The notes beneath the pieces are model-generated. The model was not told where the DNA came from and made no database searches. It saw nothing but the letters and a program-made list of their open reading frames with translations. 64,000 nucleotides of DNA from Salipiger abyssi (GTDB lineage: Bacteria; Pseudomonadota; Alphaproteobacteria; Rhodobacterales; Rhodobacteraceae): NCBI RefSeq assembly GCF_017311415.1, contig NZ_JAEKIS010000003.1:186001-250000 (forward strand), given 5' to 3'. This document shows positions 23,047-31,861 of the stretch, in pieces; position 1 is the first letter of the stretch, and every line of letters starts with the position of its first letter. The position numbers and the translations under genes are program-made.

Positions 23047-23667
23047 ATGGCGACGACCCGGGAAGAGAAACGCGCCGATCTGAAGCGCCGGCTGATCGAG
23101 GCCGCCGAGGCACAGATTCTGGAGAAGGGGCTGGCCGGGCTGAAGGCGCGCGAGGTGACCGCGCAGGCGGGCTGCGCGCTGGGCGCGCTTTATAATGCCT
23201 TTGAGGATCTCGACATGCTGGTGCTGCATGTGAACTCGCGCACGCTGGCGCGGCTGGGCGCGGCGCTGCAGGCGGCGCGCCGCGACGGCGCCGATGCCGC
23301 GACCGAATTGCAGGCGCTGGCGCGGGCCTATGTGGATTTTGCCTGCGACAATCAGCGGCTCTGGTCGGCGCTGTTCGAACATCGGCTGCCCGATGGTGTG
23401 ACGATGCCCAACTGGCACCGCGACGACCACGCGGTGCTGATCGCCGAGATCATCGCACCGCTGGGCGCCCTGCGTCCCGATCTCGATCCCGAGGCGCTTC
23501 GGCTGCGCGCGCAGACCACCTTTGCCGCCGTGCACGGGGTGGTGCAGCTTTCGCTTCAGGGGCGATTCGTCGGCGTTCCGCAGGAATGCCTGGTGGACGA
23601 GGTGGCGGCGCTGGTGGCGACGATGACCCGGGGCAGCCGGCCCGGTTCAGATCCGGCGGGCGCGTAG
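23047..23667 (+). CDS. TetR/AcrR family regulator
   Basis: A 206-residue repressor with an N-terminal HTH (residues 12-58, ending GALYNAFEDLDMLVLHVN) and a C-terminal ligand domain of the TetR_C_33/WHG type. It is divergent from the pspA-like gene, and three palindromic sites lie in the gap, so it most likely represses both directions. Its 3' end overlaps the end of the convergent glycosyltransferase gene by 21 bp. The ligand is unknown; a membrane-active compound would fit the target genes. Confidence 0.9.
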   Translation: MATTREEKRADLKRRLIEAAEAQILEKGLAGLKAREVTAQAGCALGALYNAFEDLDMLVLHVNSRTLARLGAALQAARRDGADAATELQALARAYVDFACDNQRLWSALFEHRLPDGVTMPNWHRDDHAVLIAEIIAPLGALRPDLDPEALRLRAQTTFAAVHGVVQLSLQGRFVGVPQECLVDEVAALVATMTRGSRPGSDPAGA

Positions 23668-24348
23668 CGCGAGGATCTGGCGCAGGGTTTCGGAGGGCGG
23701 CACCGTGCGGAAGATGTCGCGCAGCATGGCGGCATCGGCGCGCAGCCCGTCGACCCAGCCGCCGCGCTTGGTGTGCTTGAGCGGACTGTCGACGCCGGGC
23801 CAGCGCACGATGGCCAGCCGCAGCCCGTCGCTCAGCCAGAGCCGGTTTATGAACACCTCCAGCCCGAAGCGGGGCAAGCCGCGCAGCGTGGCGGTATGGG
23901 CGGCGAGCAGCGCGCGCGGCATCACCCGTTCGCCCGAGATGTAGTCGATCCCCAGTGCACGCCAGAGCAGCGGCGCATTGCGGCGCAGGCTGATCGCTGC
24001 ATCGGCGCGGCGCTCCAGCACCGGCGCGATGAGGTCGCTCAGATGATCCGCGTCGAGCCCCAGAAGATCGCTGTCGAGCAGCAGCAGATGCTCGCCCCGC
24101 GCCGCCTCGATCCCGGTGGCCACGGCGCGGCTCTTGCCGCCGTTCTGCGGCTGCCGGATCACCCGCAGCGTGGGCGCGTCTGTCGCCAGCGCCTCGGCAC
24201 GGTCTGCGGTGCCGTCGGAAGAGCCGTCATCGACCACGATCACCTCGCAGATCAGCGGGTGATCCAGCACGGCGGCCAGAACGGCGCCGATGCGGGGGGC
24301 CTCGTTATAGGCGGGGATGATGCAGGAGAGCCGGGGCGTGTCGGTCAT
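23647..24348 (-). CDS. Family 2 glycosyltransferase
   Basis: A 233-residue GT-A enzyme. The N-terminal CIIPAYNEAPRIG segment, VVDDGSSDGT (nucleotide-sugar site, about 38-47) and LLLDSDL (the DXD metal site, about 90-96) are clear. There is no membrane helix, so it is probably peripheral. It is the last gene of the operon 26.9-23.6 kb. Its start overlaps the DedA stop (ATGA). In this context it may glycosylate a lipid or a polyprenyl phosphate. Confidence 0.87.
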   Translation of the reverse strand: MTDTPRLSCIIPAYNEAPRIGAVLAAVLDHPLICEVIVVDDGSSDGTADRAEALATDAPTLRVIRQPQNGGKSRAVATGIEAARGEHLLLLDSDLLGLDADHLSDLIAPVLERRADAAISLRRNAPLLWRALGIDYISGERVMPRALLAAHTATLRGLPRFGLEVFINRLWLSDGLRLAIVRWPGVDSPLKHTKRGGWVDGLRADAAMLRDIFRTVPPSETLRQILALRARRI

Positions 24349-24917
24349 TTGCGCGTCGTCCTTTTCAGCAGCCAGACGATCCCGGCCATGATCAGAACGC
24401 CGAGCAGCAGCAAAGAGATCCGTGCGATCCAGTCGTCGATCTTGCTGTAGGCCGCGCCGAAGGCATAGCCGAGCGCCACGAAGAACAGGCTTTTCGGGAT
24501 GGTGGCCAGCAGGTTGACCCAGAAGAAGCGGAACATCGGCATCTTCGCGAGCCCCGCCGCCACCAGCACGGCGGCACCTGCGGAATGGGTGAGCTTGCCG
24601 ATCACCAGCGTGCGGCTGCCATTTTTCTGGAAATGGCCGGCGACCTGGGCGAGCCGCGCGCGGCTCAGCCCCATGCGGTAGCGCCAGCGCAGGGGCAGCC
24701 TGTGCAGCCCCCAGCGCCCGAGCGCGTAGAACCCCATGTCGCCCACCATGTCGGCGAGGATCACCACGATGCTGACGCTCCAGACATCAAGCAGTCCGCG
24801 GCTGGCGAGCCATGCGGCGATGACCGTCACGATGGGGCCTTCCAGCACTGCGATGGGCGCCAGGATGGCCAGCCCGTTCTTGGCGATCAGGGCTGCAACT
24901 GTCTCCAATCCCAACAA
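24345..24917 (-). CDS. DedA family membrane protein
   Basis: A 190-residue polytopic inner-membrane protein with DedA landmarks: the E-G/P motif in LAPIAVLEGPIVTVIAA (residues 18-34), the FYALGRWG segment and GKLTHSAGAAVLVAAG, similar to the conserved F/H-R-x-x-P-G region of DedA. DedA proteins act as lipid scramblases or transporters for undecaprenyl phosphate and phospholipids. It lies 3 bp after the GT21 gene and overlaps the GT2 gene, so translation is coupled. Confidence 0.88.
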   Translation of the reverse strand: MLGLETVAALIAKNGLAILAPIAVLEGPIVTVIAAWLASRGLLDVWSVSIVVILADMVGDMGFYALGRWGLHRLPLRWRYRMGLSRARLAQVAGHFQKNGSRTLVIGKLTHSAGAAVLVAAGLAKMPMFRFFWVNLLATIPKSLFFVALGYAFGAAYSKIDDWIARISLLLLGVLIMAGIVWLLKRTTRK

Positions 24918-24920
24918 GTG

Positions 24921-26048
24921 CTACTCCGCCGGGCCCGCCGGGGTCTCGGGCGCCATATCCGTTCCACGCCATGTAAAGCCGCGCCCTGTCCATGTGGCAA
25001 GCCAGAGCGCCGGAAGCAAGAGATCGCGCAGCAGCATCGCCGCGAGATCGCGCAAGGAGGCGGGCCAGCCGGCACTGCGGGCCAGTGCCAGCTCGGCGCC
25101 GTACCAGACCAGTGGCAGCGCGATCAGCGTGGATGCGGGCAGCGCGCCCATGGCCACCAGCGCGGCGAGGGCTGCCAGCGGGATCAGCGGGCCCTGAGCG
25201 ATTTCGGCGCTGAAGATCATCGGAAAGCCGTCGCGGCGCACGCGGCTCCAGCGCAGCTGCCGGTCCCAGACGGCGCGGGCGCTGCGCTTGCCGATGGGCT
25301 GCGGAAAGAGGCGGGGTGTCAGGCGCACATGCCGGCCCTGATCGCGCACCAGCTTGGTCGAGGCGACATCCTCGGCGAGGTTGCGCCCCAGCGCCGGCAG
25401 GCCGCCGCCGGCCTCGAGCACGTTGCGGTTCCAGAACAGTGTCTTGCCCTGGGCAAAGCCGAAGCCCAGCGAATCCGCCGCAAGCTGCCAGCGCCCTTGC
25501 GAGCTGTTCAGAAAGGCGCATTCCAGCGCGCCCCAGAAATTGCCGGGCCGGATGCCGGCGGGCGGCGAGGACACCAGACCGGTATTCTCGCGCCAGCTTG
25601 CCACCAGGGTGCGCAAATAGTCGCGCGGTAAAAGCAGGTTGCTGTCGGTCATCGCCACCCATTCGCTGCGCGCCGCGACATAGCCCTTGTGCAGATTGTT
25701 GAGCTTGGGATTGCCGCTGATGGGCGTCTCGCCAAAGAGCAGCGTCGCCTCGATCTGCGGATTGTCGGCGATGAGCCGCTGCACCAGCGGCACGGCGGGG
25801 TCGTTTTGCGAGGGCGCGCAAAAGATCACCTCGTAACGCGGATAATCCTGCATGAAGGAGGAGGCCAGCGTTTCGGCGTCGAATGTGTCGAGCCCGCAGA
25901 CCGGGCGCACCAGCGAGATATAGGGCAGGGCACTGTCGTCGGCCCTGGGTGGTGCCGGCCGGTGATGACGGCGCGCGGTGAGGCCGGCGCTGAGCAGATG
26001 CGCGGCGAGCGGTATGGCGAGGGCGCAGAACAGCAGAATCTCGGTCAT
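24921..26048 (-). CDS. GT21-type lipid glycosyltransferase (ceramide/diacylglycerol glucosyltransferase-like)
   Basis: A 375-residue membrane glycosyltransferase. An N-terminal anchor (residues 3-23) is followed by a GT21 catalytic domain with SLVRPVCGLD, NPKLNNLHKGY (residues about 112-122), the acidic VAMTDSN site, the third acidic site in NLAEDVAS, and the acceptor motif RQLRWSRVRR. Hydrophobic helices follow at the C terminus. Family members use ceramide or diacylglycerol; processive GT21 enzymes making glycoglycerolipids are known in Agrobacterium and Mesorhizobium. The start at 26048 overlaps the upstream phosphoesterase stop by 4 bp. Confidence 0.87.
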   Translation of the reverse strand: MTEILLFCALAIPLAAHLLSAGLTARRHHRPAPPRADDSALPYISLVRPVCGLDTFDAETLASSFMQDYPRYEVIFCAPSQNDPAVPLVQRLIADNPQIEATLLFGETPISGNPKLNNLHKGYVAARSEWVAMTDSNLLLPRDYLRTLVASWRENTGLVSSPPAGIRPGNFWGALECAFLNSSQGRWQLAADSLGFGFAQGKTLFWNRNVLEAGGGLPALGRNLAEDVASTKLVRDQGRHVRLTPRLFPQPIGKRSARAVWDRQLRWSRVRRDGFPMIFSAEIAQGPLIPLAALAALVAMGALPASTLIALPLVWYGAELALARSAGWPASLRDLAAMLLRDLLLPALWLATWTGRGFTWRGTDMAPETPAGPAE

Positions 26049-26878
26049 GCGATGCCTCCGGCGAGCGCGCCGCCATCGTTCGGAGCCTGCTGCGGCGGCA
26101 GCGGGCGTGCCGGGGTGCGGGCGCGCTCGGGGCTGTATTCGATCAGCCGCATCTGGCCTTGCCGGTCTTCGCCGAGGGCGGTCAGGCTGTCGATCCAGTC
26201 GCCGCAATTGGCGTACATGATGCCGTCGCGGTGGCGCAGCGCGGGCTTGTGTGAATGGCCGCAGATCACGCCCGCCGTGCCGGCGGCGCGGGCCAGCGTG
26301 GTCAGCCGGTTCTCGAACCGGTCGCCCATGGCCATCACCCGGTTGGCGCGGTCGATCACCCGCTGTGCCGGGCTGCGGCTGTGGCGGTCGAGCGTGGCGT
26401 TGCGGCGGTGCCAGTCGTCGATCTGGCGCAGCATCGCGTCGAGCCGGCTGCCGAGCCGGGTCATGAAATGCCAGCGGAGGAAGCGCGGGTCGCACTGGTC
26501 GCCATGCATCACCAGATAGCGGCGCCCGTCGGCGGCCTTGTGGACCACGGCTTCGCGCAGTTCCCAGCCTTCGACCGTCGCGTCGGGCGCGCGCATGGCG
26601 GAGTCGTGGTTGCCGGGCAGGTAGACGATCCGCGTTCCGCTCGCGACGCGAGCGCGCAGATCGGCGAGCACCGCTTCGTGGCTCTCGCTCCAGTGGATGC
26701 GGCCGCCATGCCAGATGTCGAAGATGTCGCCGACGAGATAGATCGTCTCGGCTTCGATGTCGCGGAGGAACTCGAGAACCTGCGCCGGGCGGCTGGCGCG
26801 GGCTCCGAGATGCAGATCGGAGAGGAACAGGCTTCGCAGGGTCTGGCGGGCGTCGGTGCCGGCAGGAGAGGACGGCAT
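26045..26878 (-). CDS. Metallophosphoesterase, PlcP/LpxH-like
   Basis: A 277-residue calcineurin-like phosphoesterase. Metal-ligand motifs in order are SDLHLG (20-25), GDIFDIWH (about 50-57), GNHD (about 89-92), MHGDQ (about 123-127) and CGHSHKPA (about 208-215). Databases often label such proteins UDP-2,3-diacylglucosamine diphosphatase (LpxH). Alphaproteobacteria, however, generally use LpxI for that step, and the coupled GT21/DedA/GT2 genes point to PlcP, the phospholipase C of phosphate-stress lipid remodelling. I see no convincing Pho box in the 154-bp upstream gap. Family firm; substrate inferred. Confidence 0.85.
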   Translation of the reverse strand: MPSSPAGTDARQTLRSLFLSDLHLGARASRPAQVLEFLRDIEAETIYLVGDIFDIWHGGRIHWSESHEAVLADLRARVASGTRIVYLPGNHDSAMRAPDATVEGWELREAVVHKAADGRRYLVMHGDQCDPRFLRWHFMTRLGSRLDAMLRQIDDWHRRNATLDRHSRSPAQRVIDRANRVMAMGDRFENRLTTLARAAGTAGVICGHSHKPALRHRDGIMYANCGDWIDSLTALGEDRQGQMRLIEYSPERARTPARPLPPQQAPNDGGALAGGIA

Positions 26879-27032
26879 TCGGGCAACTTCCTTCTTCGCT
26901 CGCCCGCCTTATGGCGGCAGGATGTATCGGGAATGTGACGTCATTTAACGCAATGAAAGCTCTTCGGGTTCCCGGTTTAGGACGGAATGCCGCAGTGCGG
27001 CGTTTTGTTGCCAGTGGGTGCTTTGCGGGGGC

Positions 27033-30123: not shown

Positions 30124-30729
30124 ATGTTCGACGCGAGACTGCTGCCGCTTCAGCGGCGTCTGCTGCACGGGCCGGCGCGGGCGCTGCACGGGCGCGGTGT
30201 GGGGGCCGATGCGATTACGCTTGCGGGCTTTGCCTGCGGGCTGCTGGCGGTGCTGGCGGCGGCCTGCGGTCTCTTCGGGCTGGCGCTGGCCGGGCTGGCG
30301 GCGAACCGGCTGGCCGACGGGCTCGACGGCGAGGTGGCGCGGCTGGCGGGGCCGACCGACCGGGGCGCCTTTCTCGATATCGCGCTGGATTTCGTCTTTT
30401 ACGCGCTGTTCCCGGTGGGTTTCGGACTGGCGGATCCGGCGGCCAACGCGGTGCCGGCGCTGGTCCTCGTGGCGAGCTTTGTCGGCACCGGCTCATCCTT
30501 TCTCGCCTTTTCGGTGATCGCCGAGCGGCGCGGCATCCGGGCCGACGCCTATCCCAGCAAGGGCATCTATTATCTCGGCGGGCTGACCGAGGGCGGCGAG
30601 ACCATCGCGCTCTTTGTGGCCATGTGCCTGTTTCCCGGCGCCTTTCCTGCGCTGGCGCTGGTCTTTGCGGCGGCCTGTTTCGTCACGACCCTGACCCGCT
30701 GGCTGGCGGGCTGGCGGCTCTTCGGCTGA
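30124..30729 (+). CDS. CDP-alcohol phosphatidyltransferase family protein
   Basis: A 201-residue inner-membrane enzyme. The diagnostic motif D-x2-DG-x2-AR-x8-G-x3-D-x3-D is present in DGLDGEVARLAGPTDRGAFLDIALD (residues about 64-88), with six hydrophobic helices. The family transfers a phosphatidyl or phospho-group from a CDP-alcohol to an alcohol acceptor; the specific product (PG, PI or PS type) cannot be told. The 3' end overlaps the convergent reductase gene by 47 bp. It starts 75 bp from modE, divergently. Confidence 0.88.
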   Translation: MFDARLLPLQRRLLHGPARALHGRGVGADAITLAGFACGLLAVLAAACGLFGLALAGLAANRLADGLDGEVARLAGPTDRGAFLDIALDFVFYALFPVGFGLADPAANAVPALVLVASFVGTGSSFLAFSVIAERRGIRADAYPSKGIYYLGGLTEGGETIALFVAMCLFPGAFPALALVFAAACFVTTLTRWLAGWRLFG

Positions 30730-31861
30730 GCATCCCGCCGCGCAACAGGCGCAGGGGCAGACGGCGCAGGGTGAGCAGCAGGAGCTCCGGATACTCGATC
30801 TCGCCGGCCAGAAGCGCCATGTAGCGCTGTCGTGCGGTGGTCGAGTCGTGAAAAAGCCGGGCGAAATACGGGCTCGTTTGGTCGGAAAAGATCAGAGGCC
30901 GCAAGAGGTTGGCATGTCGCAGCCCCCGGTGCAGCGGGCCAAGCGCGCGGCGGTAGCGGCTGAGCGCACTCTCGGGCGCGCCGTCGGCGAGGGCCTCCGC
31001 GACCGCTTTGGCGGCGTAGTGGCCGCTGAGGATCGCGTGGCCGATGCCCTCGCCGGTGATCGGATCCACCAGCCCCGCCGCATCGCCGGCCAGCAGGATG
31101 GCGCCGCGCCCGGGCGTCCGGCGGAAATCGCCGAAGGGCAGGAAATGGCCCTTGATCCGCAGCGCCTTTGGGGCATCGAGTTCGGAAAGATAGCGCATCA
31201 TCCCCGCGCGCATTCGCGGATTGCATGCGTGCAGCCCGCCGATGCCGATTGTGGTGCTTTCCGGTTTCGGAAAGCGCCAGCCATAGCCCCAGTTTGCGGC
31301 ACCGAAATCGATGCGGATCGGCTCCTGCGGTGCCGGCGGGGCCTCGGTCTCAAGCGCGAAGCCGATCTTCGCCTTGTCGAAAGACGCGCCGAAGAGATGG
31401 CGGGCGACGACGCTTTGCACCCCGTCCGCGCCGATCAGCGCGGAGAACGTCAGCAGCGTGCCGTTTTCCAGCGTGACCTGTCCCGCGCCGATCTCGCGCA
31501 GCCGCGTGCCGGTGAGATCCACCGCCCCGGCCTCCAACGCCAGCGCCAGCAGGTGATGGTCGAGCGAGAGCCGCGTGGTCAGGTGCAGCGGCGGGCTGTC
31601 GGTCATCTCGCCCAGCGGCGCGCCGTCCCGGTAGAAGACCAGCCGCTCGTGACGGGTGAGCATGTCGGGCGGGGGCAGGGCGGAGAGTGCCGCCTGATGG
31701 CTCAGACAGCGCCCTGTGATCAGCCCGCCGCAGAGCTTGTCGCGGGGAAAGACCGCCTTGTCGATCAGCGCGACGCGCAGCCCGGCCCGCGCGGCCACCA
31801 GCGCGGCGGTTGCACCGGCGGGACCGGCGCCGAGAACGATCAGGTCGAAACGGGTCAGCAT
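30683..31861 (-). CDS. Geranylgeranyl-reductase-like FAD-dependent oxidoreductase
   Basis: A 392-residue flavoprotein. It has the N-terminal FAD dinucleotide-binding motif VLGAGPAGATAA (9-20) and the KLCGGLITGR segment typical of geranylgeranyl reductases. A second FAD motif, LLAGDAAGLVDPITGEGIGHAI (about 273-294), contacts the flavin phosphates. Relatives reduce isoprenoid double bonds in chlorophyll/quinone or archaeal lipid pathways. No photosynthesis gene is nearby, so the substrate is open. Its C-terminal tail overlaps the phosphatidyltransferase gene by 47 bp. Confidence 0.86.
   Translation of the reverse strand: MLTRFDLIVLGAGPAGATAALVAARAGLRVALIDKAVFPRDKLCGGLITGRCLSHQAALSALPPPDMLTRHERLVFYRDGAPLGEMTDSPPLHLTTRLSLDHHLLALALEAGAVDLTGTRLREIGAGQVTLENGTLLTFSALIGADGVQSVVARHLFGASFDKAKIGFALETEAPPAPQEPIRIDFGAANWGYGWRFPKPESTTIGIGGLHACNPRMRAGMMRYLSELDAPKALRIKGHFLPFGDFRRTPGRGAILLAGDAAGLVDPITGEGIGHAILSGHYAAKAVAEALADGAPESALSRYRRALGPLHRGLRHANLLRPLIFSDQTSPYFARLFHDSTTARQRYMALLAGEIEYPELLLLTLRRLPLRLLRGGMLSRRAASPPASGSGS

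Follow-up and report, generated by a model that had tools for sequence, protein, structure and literature searches.

Which lipid would be made by a gene set that joins a phosphoesterase to two glycosyltransferases and a DedA membrane protein, and under which control? The question is raised by the window analysed here (the whole stretch of 64,000 nucleotides (nt), positions 186,001 to 250,000 of contig NZ_JAEKIS010000003.1 of Salipiger abyssi, whose genome is 5.2 Mb), where an operon of four minus-strand genes runs from 26878 to 23647 with intergenic gaps of -4, +3 and -4 nt. We place at roughly 0.58 the probability that this module would convert phospholipid into a diglycosyl-lipid, under general stress in the genus Salipiger and often under Pho control elsewhere. 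The genes are:

26045..26878, minus strand: metallophosphoesterase (MPE) of a PlcP-like clade, a predicted phospholipase C releasing diacylglycerol; 277 amino acids, Metallophos_2 4.4e-13
24921..26048, minus strand: GT21 lipid glycosyltransferase (Pgt/ceramide-glucosyltransferase family); 375 amino acids, Glyco_transf_21 2.3e-51, 4-nt overlap with the MPE gene
24345..24917, minus strand: divergent DedA/VTT membrane protein, a predicted lipid transporter; 190 amino acids, TTG start, VTT_dom 6.9e-14, 3-nt gap after the GT21 gene
23647..24348, minus strand: GT2 (GT-A glycosyltransferase), a probable second sugar transferase; 233 amino acids, Glycos_transf_2 5.6e-28, 4-nt overlap with the DedA gene

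All four proteins exceed the cut-offs of their Pfam families, and these families and coordinates agree with the sequence-only reading, which had described tightly coupled genes for an MPE, a GT21, a DedA and a GT2 protein.

A conserved four-gene unit

The order MPE-GT21-DedA-GT2 is kept in 20/20 genomes of the genus (in one of which, G009/L070, the GT21 gene is split as if by a frameshift), and all four genes stand in that order in 23 of the 26 other genomes of the family that carry the MPE clade of the module, the remaining three comprising one locus truncated by a contig end, one without DedA and one with the MPE alone. A scan of named genomes with a GT2 profile gave 256 relatives, the best 80 of which were examined as loci (13 are from the genus itself, some repeat the family set and some are cut by contig ends). 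All four genes stand in order in 61 of these 80 loci (one of them, L271, with a short DedA match only), and the partial sets were MPE-GT21-GT2 (8), GT21-DedA-GT2 (7), DedA-GT2-GT2 (2), GT21-GT2 (1) and DedA-GT2 (1). GT21 and GT2 are both present in 77 of the 80, the GT2 gene adjoins GT21 or DedA in every one, and gaps of 20 nt or less were found in 62/69 MPE-GT21, 68/68 GT21-DedA and 63/71 DedA-GT2 pairs. Within a sample of 295 family genomes (about one per genus; GT2 threshold E<=1e-30), the GT2 occurs in 28 and the module MPE clade in 28, jointly in 27. The four-gene set is a real conserved unit and not an accidental arrangement, and the proposal of a genuine coupled operon holds in the genus, in the family and in the named loci. 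No genome of the 295 carried both a module MPE and a canonical PlcP; this apparent mutual exclusion was given no weight, about two such genomes being expected by chance and 8 of the 51 MPE-matching genomes, with weaker matches, lying outside the placement by the MPE tree.

The unit extends beyond the family. Seven loci from Enterobacterales cluster as one group in the GT2 tree (Shimodaira-Hasegawa-like approximate likelihood ratio test 96; L267 was removed from this tree by its length), a grouping that reads as a single transfer. In the analysis as a whole, rows were left out if the translation had internal stops, as in L159, or if the length did not fit the limits chosen. The full four-gene set is plasmid-borne in Fuscovulum blasticum and Gemmobacter fulvus, and a Pannonibacter plasmid holds MPE-GT21-GT2 without DedA.

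Incomplete or interrupted copies were also seen. One plasmid of the Thioclava nitratireducens pair L157 and L159 carries an MPE with no GT21, DedA or GT2 match and with an insertion sequence transposase a few genes off, and the other carries an interrupted copy of the module adjoining transposase genes. The Enterobacterales loci L234, L254 and L270 have GT21-DedA-GT2 only, with no MPE match, and the Patescibacteria contigs L261 and L267 have a DedA-GT2 pair and a second GT2 match, with no match to MPE or GT21.

The phosphoesterase and the lipid glycosyltransferase

Relatives of the MPE are automatically annotated as UDP-2,3-diacylglucosamine diphosphatase, and the protein has in common with LpxH the metallophosphoesterase domain and the metal ligands. 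To the reading that this is the genuine LpxH, serving lipid A synthesis, we nevertheless give practically no credence, and it was rejected on three grounds: the MPE scores 54 and 68 bits with two LpxH models whose cut-offs are 190 and 134 bits; it has GNHD where Escherichia coli LpxH has GNRD; and lpxI is present elsewhere in its own genome, as in 20/20 genomes of the genus, so that the MPE is not the sole candidate hydrolase of UDP-diacylglucosamine. In addition, the five other genera of the family searched for both genes all have lpxI and no match to the module MPE. The sequence-only reading, which had foreseen the automatic name and pointed to lpxI as the gene to look for, is borne out on both counts.

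Likeness to PlcP is found at the active site. S20/D21/H23/G25, GNHD, G207/H208/H210, N224 and GDW are conserved in 90/90 module rows (some genes being fetched twice) and in 25/25 canonical PlcP-type rows, that is, rows placed by the MPE tree with the references of Sinorhizobium meliloti and Pseudomonas aeruginosa; C206 is present in 90/90 and 24/25, respectively. The GNHD, CGHxH and N-x-GDW motifs and the metal ligands are thus common to module MPEs and PlcPs. In the MPE tree (LpxH as outgroup; 14 of the 19 fetched genus rows omitted), the 36 module-type rows cluster together (99/82), apart from LpxH and outside the rows with the two reference PlcPs; the groups nearest the outgroup show no clear branching order. 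The suggested phylogeny with PlcP and LpxH therefore separates the MPE from LpxH as anticipated, but the 36 module-type rows do not fall inside the clade of characterised PlcPs. The window MPE is 36% identical to the S. meliloti reference and 31% to that of P. aeruginosa, whereas the two references share 44% identity. We take these references to be SMc00171 and PA3219; the former adjoins acyl-homoserine lactone synthase and LuxR genes, and the latter glycosyltransferase and CyaB genes. An acyl-homoserine lactone synthase/LuxR neighbourhood of plcP was also seen in L160 (CP090106.1), a replicon of 3.7 Mb that is labelled pSymB in PLSDB and resembles the S. meliloti chromosome.

Judged by the lpxI distribution, the sub-threshold scores, the PlcP signature residues and the tree position, the MPE is PlcP-like and not LpxH, in a clade of its own beside the characterised PlcPs. 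As a first step of the proposed route, suggested by homology, the conserved active site and the partner genes, it would cleave phospholipid into diacylglycerol and a phospho-headgroup. This is the predicted phospholipid-diacylglycerol-glycolipid route of PlcP-Agt/Pgt remodelling (S. meliloti PlcP; P. aeruginosa PA3219-PA3218; Mesorhizobium loti and Agrobacterium tumefaciens Pgt), with which the module shares a PlcP-type gene coupled to a lipid glycosyltransferase and from which it differs by the separate MPE clade, the recurrent DedA and GT2 genes and, in Salipiger, a promoter of the sigma-EcfG type with no Pho box above chance level. PA3219 of P. aeruginosa has been described (PMC8528852).

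The second enzyme scores 174 bits with the GT21 domain (curated cut-off 21.7). Pgt of A. tumefaciens, assigned to GT21 (PMC8231724), makes diglycosyl-diacylglycerols and favours diacylglycerol over ceramide (PMC3972451), and on this family relationship GT21 would, as a second step, transfer a hexose from a UDP-sugar to the diacylglycerol. A ceramide or hopanoid acceptor in place of diacylglycerol is suggested by its family relatives, since the nearest solved structure is a ceramide glucosyltransferase (26qs, E=1.5e-36) and the best NCBIfam model is HpnI. We consider such an acceptor very improbable: the HpnI score (192 bits) is below the cut-off of 310; the protein is 44-50% identical to three GT21s from Hyphomicrobiales (none labelled Pgt) and 27% to an annotated HpnI; and a squalene-hopene cyclase had no match in any of the 13 genus genomes searched, serine palmitoyltransferase not being among the proteins searched for. 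An identity as HpnI was rejected on the score and the lack of a cyclase match in these 13 genomes. BtaA likewise had no match in the same number of genus genomes searched (13/13).

The second glycosyltransferase and the DedA protein

The structure of GT2 is predicted with a local distance difference score (pLDDT) of 94, and its nearest solved folds are GpgS first, then GtrB, DPMS and ArnC. It shares the GT-A fold with GpgS and GtrB/DPMS, and differs from them by a conserved DYISGER motif of its own and by lying next to GT21 or DedA at each of the 80 loci analysed (best 80 of 256). Given this near-constant linkage to GT21, GT2 may in a third step add the second sugar to the same lipid.

The DedA protein scores 52.8 bits with the VTT domain (cut-off 33.9), which it has in common with DedA proteins of the UptA/YqjA type. 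E39, D51, R130 and R136 are essential in YqjA, with R130 and R136 needed in YqjA/YghB (PMC6849406), and the corresponding arginines of UptA contribute with W146 to undecaprenyl-phosphate binding (PMC11474028). The module DedA differs at these positions: among 93 distinct proteins, R130 is replaced by K in 92, R136 by G in 90 and the Trp by K142 in 92 (W146 of UptA was matched to K142 by the same 28-residue spacing from the second Arg position), and H111 is present in 90. Nine other DedA homologues keep the first Arg in seven cases and the second in six, the alignment of this region being poor for two of them. At YqjA E39 the alignment has a gap in 93/93 module proteins (and in 8/9 of the other homologues) and at D51 a P in 93/93, in a region of uncertain alignment close to which E26 is present in 93/93; the full essential set of YqjA is thus lacking from the 93 aligned proteins, with this uncertainty at E39 and D51. 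The change from Arg/Arg/Trp to Lys/Gly/Lys at the substrate site points to a substrate without phosphate, and we infer that the module DedA handles a phosphate-free lipid. In a fourth step, this divergent protein may move the phosphorus-free glycolipid between leaflets.

An alternative is that GT2 and DedA serve polyprenyl phosphate, GT2 making a polyprenyl-phosphate sugar, DedA recycling or flipping the carrier, and the unit decorating envelope glycans. Such a role would fit GtrB, DPMS and ArnC as near folds of GT2, UptA as the best NCBIfam match of DedA (54 bits, cut-off 250) and the two Patescibacteria loci with DedA-GT2 but neither MPE nor GT21. We hold it improbable, as GpgS is the top-ranked fold, the DedA has lost residues that help UptA bind undecaprenyl phosphate and no polymerase or GT-C gene is among the four. 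Moreover, the S. abyssi genome has seven VTT matches, which leaves other candidates for the carrier job, and the module DedA need not be the housekeeping one.

Promoter elements and a probable link to the stress response

A phosphate-stress pathway had been the expectation of the sequence-only reading. Upstream of the operon, the following elements were found instead:

26947..26972, minus strand: sigma-EcfG-type promoter GGAAC-N17-CGTT, a motif kept across the genus upstreams
26923..26940, minus strand: conserved 18-bp element CGTCACA-N4-CGATACA, in 20/20 genus upstreams
26908..26913, minus strand: -10-like CATAAG downstream of the 18-bp element, with ATAA at equal distance in 19/20 genus loci; putative function

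The exact pattern GGAAC-N16/17-CGTT is present in 18 of the 20 genus upstreams, with TGTT replacing CGTT in the other two; the motif starts at -89 to -108 in all 20, and the spacer measures 17 nt in 17 loci and 16 nt in the other three. In 500 dinucleotide shuffles the exact pattern appeared in 0.03 loci on average and never in more than one. Searching 478,838 strand-bases of 19 genus loci gave 20 matches, 17 of them at the promoter spot. Between species, the motif-aligned spacer (32% identity) and the 12 bases upstream (29%) are near random; the identities of the -35 (100%) and the -10 (95%) arise from anchoring on the pattern and were not used, the evidence being the shuffles, the common position and the random-looking spacer. 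Outside the genus, 29 module loci lacked the motif, as did the 27 remaining loci, and it was found in one of the 62 non-genus module loci of the named set. NepR is present in 19/19 genus genomes searched; NepR, PhyR and an extracytoplasmic function sigma factor adjoin one another in the S. abyssi genome; and the motif lies near the middle of 8/8 NepR-centred genus stretches (gene positions checked in the S. abyssi genome only). In the literature, the general-stress promoter is given as GGAAC-N16-CGTT (PMC7083833, PMC3892343). The genus operon carries a promoter motif of the sigma-EcfG type, which would, as the last part of the proposed scheme, put the Salipiger unit in the general stress response, control elsewhere being often by Pho.

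Pho boxes were scored in two overlapping sets of loci. At a score reached by no more than 2/100 shuffles, they are present in 10/25 canonical plcP upstreams, 6/29 module loci outside the genus and 0/20 genus loci; at p<=0.01 in the named set, in 10/62 non-genus module loci (two of them near-identical Thioclava) and 0/13 genus loci. A Pho box is not universal even for canonical plcP. The best score in the window promoter is 9/14, reached by 75/100 shuffles and hence at chance level, and Pho-box-like sites in the S. abyssi genome (10 matches at eight places; control pattern, 0) include none at the operon. Control by a Pho box, sought in the genus in these three ways, was not found; the phosphate control expected earlier is not upheld for Salipiger, where a sigma-EcfG-type promoter takes its place, although some other genera do have Pho boxes.

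Salipiger bermudensis HTCC2601 (L198), formerly Pelagibaca bermudensis, has both the module and the sigma-EcfG-type promoter. A pgt homologue has been named in P. bermudensis in a paper where plcP directly precedes glycosyltransferase genes, those of the pgt kind among them (PMC4796936), so that PlcP with a glycosyltransferase is not new for the genus; the word DedA is absent from the text of that paper. Among the matches listed in open-access literature, supplements lying outside, none joins PlcP with DedA, the VTT domain or EcfG. The present analysis contributes the recurring DedA and GT2 partners, an MPE clade of its own, the changed substrate site of the DedA and the promoter of the stress type.

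This earlier work, together with the Pho boxes of other module genera, favours ordinary phosphate-starvation PlcP-Pgt remodelling, with a secondary sigma-EcfG motif and with the 18-bp element, whose 7-4-7 tandem layout is like that of a Pho box, as a degenerate Pho box. We regard this as unlikely, if the least unlikely of the alternatives, in view of the chance-level score of the window promoter, the genus counts of 0/20 and 0/13, the Pho-box-like sites found elsewhere in the genome but not at the operon, and the single occurrence of the 18-bp element in the genome. The 18-bp element itself is a single site in the S. abyssi genome at up to one mismatch, and outside the genus it occurs in 4/62 module loci (L206 and L207, Donghicola; L225, Sinirhodobacter; L241, Sedimentimonas). 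It resembles the box of an activator placed across a -35 sequence, with ATAA about 10 nt past it in 19/20 genus loci.

Several points weigh against a phospholipid-to-diglycosyl-lipid unit under general stress. The 18-bp element could mark a second, differently controlled promoter, and the spacer of the sigma-EcfG-type motif is 17 nt in 17/20 loci, compared with the 16 nt of two papers (PMC7083833, PMC3892343), although 17 nt falls within the GGAAC-N17-20-GTT published for Sphingomonas melonis (PMC6599016). With 31-36% identity to two reference PlcPs, the MPE may have a different substrate. DedA is missing from 9/80 module loci and is not strictly needed; its predicted model is of moderate confidence (predicted template modelling score, pTM, 0.63), and no solved relative was found by sequence, nor any structure match at E<=0.001. 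Finally, polyprenyl-phosphate transferases are among the nearest folds of GT2, and the two Patescibacteria loci have DedA-GT2 in the absence of GT21 and MPE.

Two neighbours were considered as members of the unit and rejected: the TetR gene at 23047-23667, matched in only 3/20 genus loci (the window, L065 and L067), and the upstream modBC, matched in 10/20 (the window counted). Past modABC, a CDP-alcohol phosphatidyltransferase gene (30124-30729, plus strand) and a gene of the geranylgeranyl-reductase family (30683-31861, minus strand) form a convergent, overlapping lipid-type pair.

The preferred reading of a phospholipid-to-diglycosyl-lipid unit can be taken further, to a unit driven by stress and not by phosphate, with PlcP-like cleavage, two glycosylations and a DedA re-specialised to a phosphorus-free glycolipid, whose regulator differs between genera and which is shared with Enterobacterales; we advance this only tentatively. 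If it is true, this would be, to our knowledge, the first DedA tied to glycolipid transport. As far as we know, few DedA proteins have assigned substrates, and the route of bulk glycolipids from the inner to the outer leaflet is open; a DedA genetically tied to a lipid-glycosylation pathway offers a testable substrate. The promoter result suggests that phosphate is not the obligatory trigger of PlcP-type lipid remodelling, and plcP-like genes in marine genomes would then be read differently.

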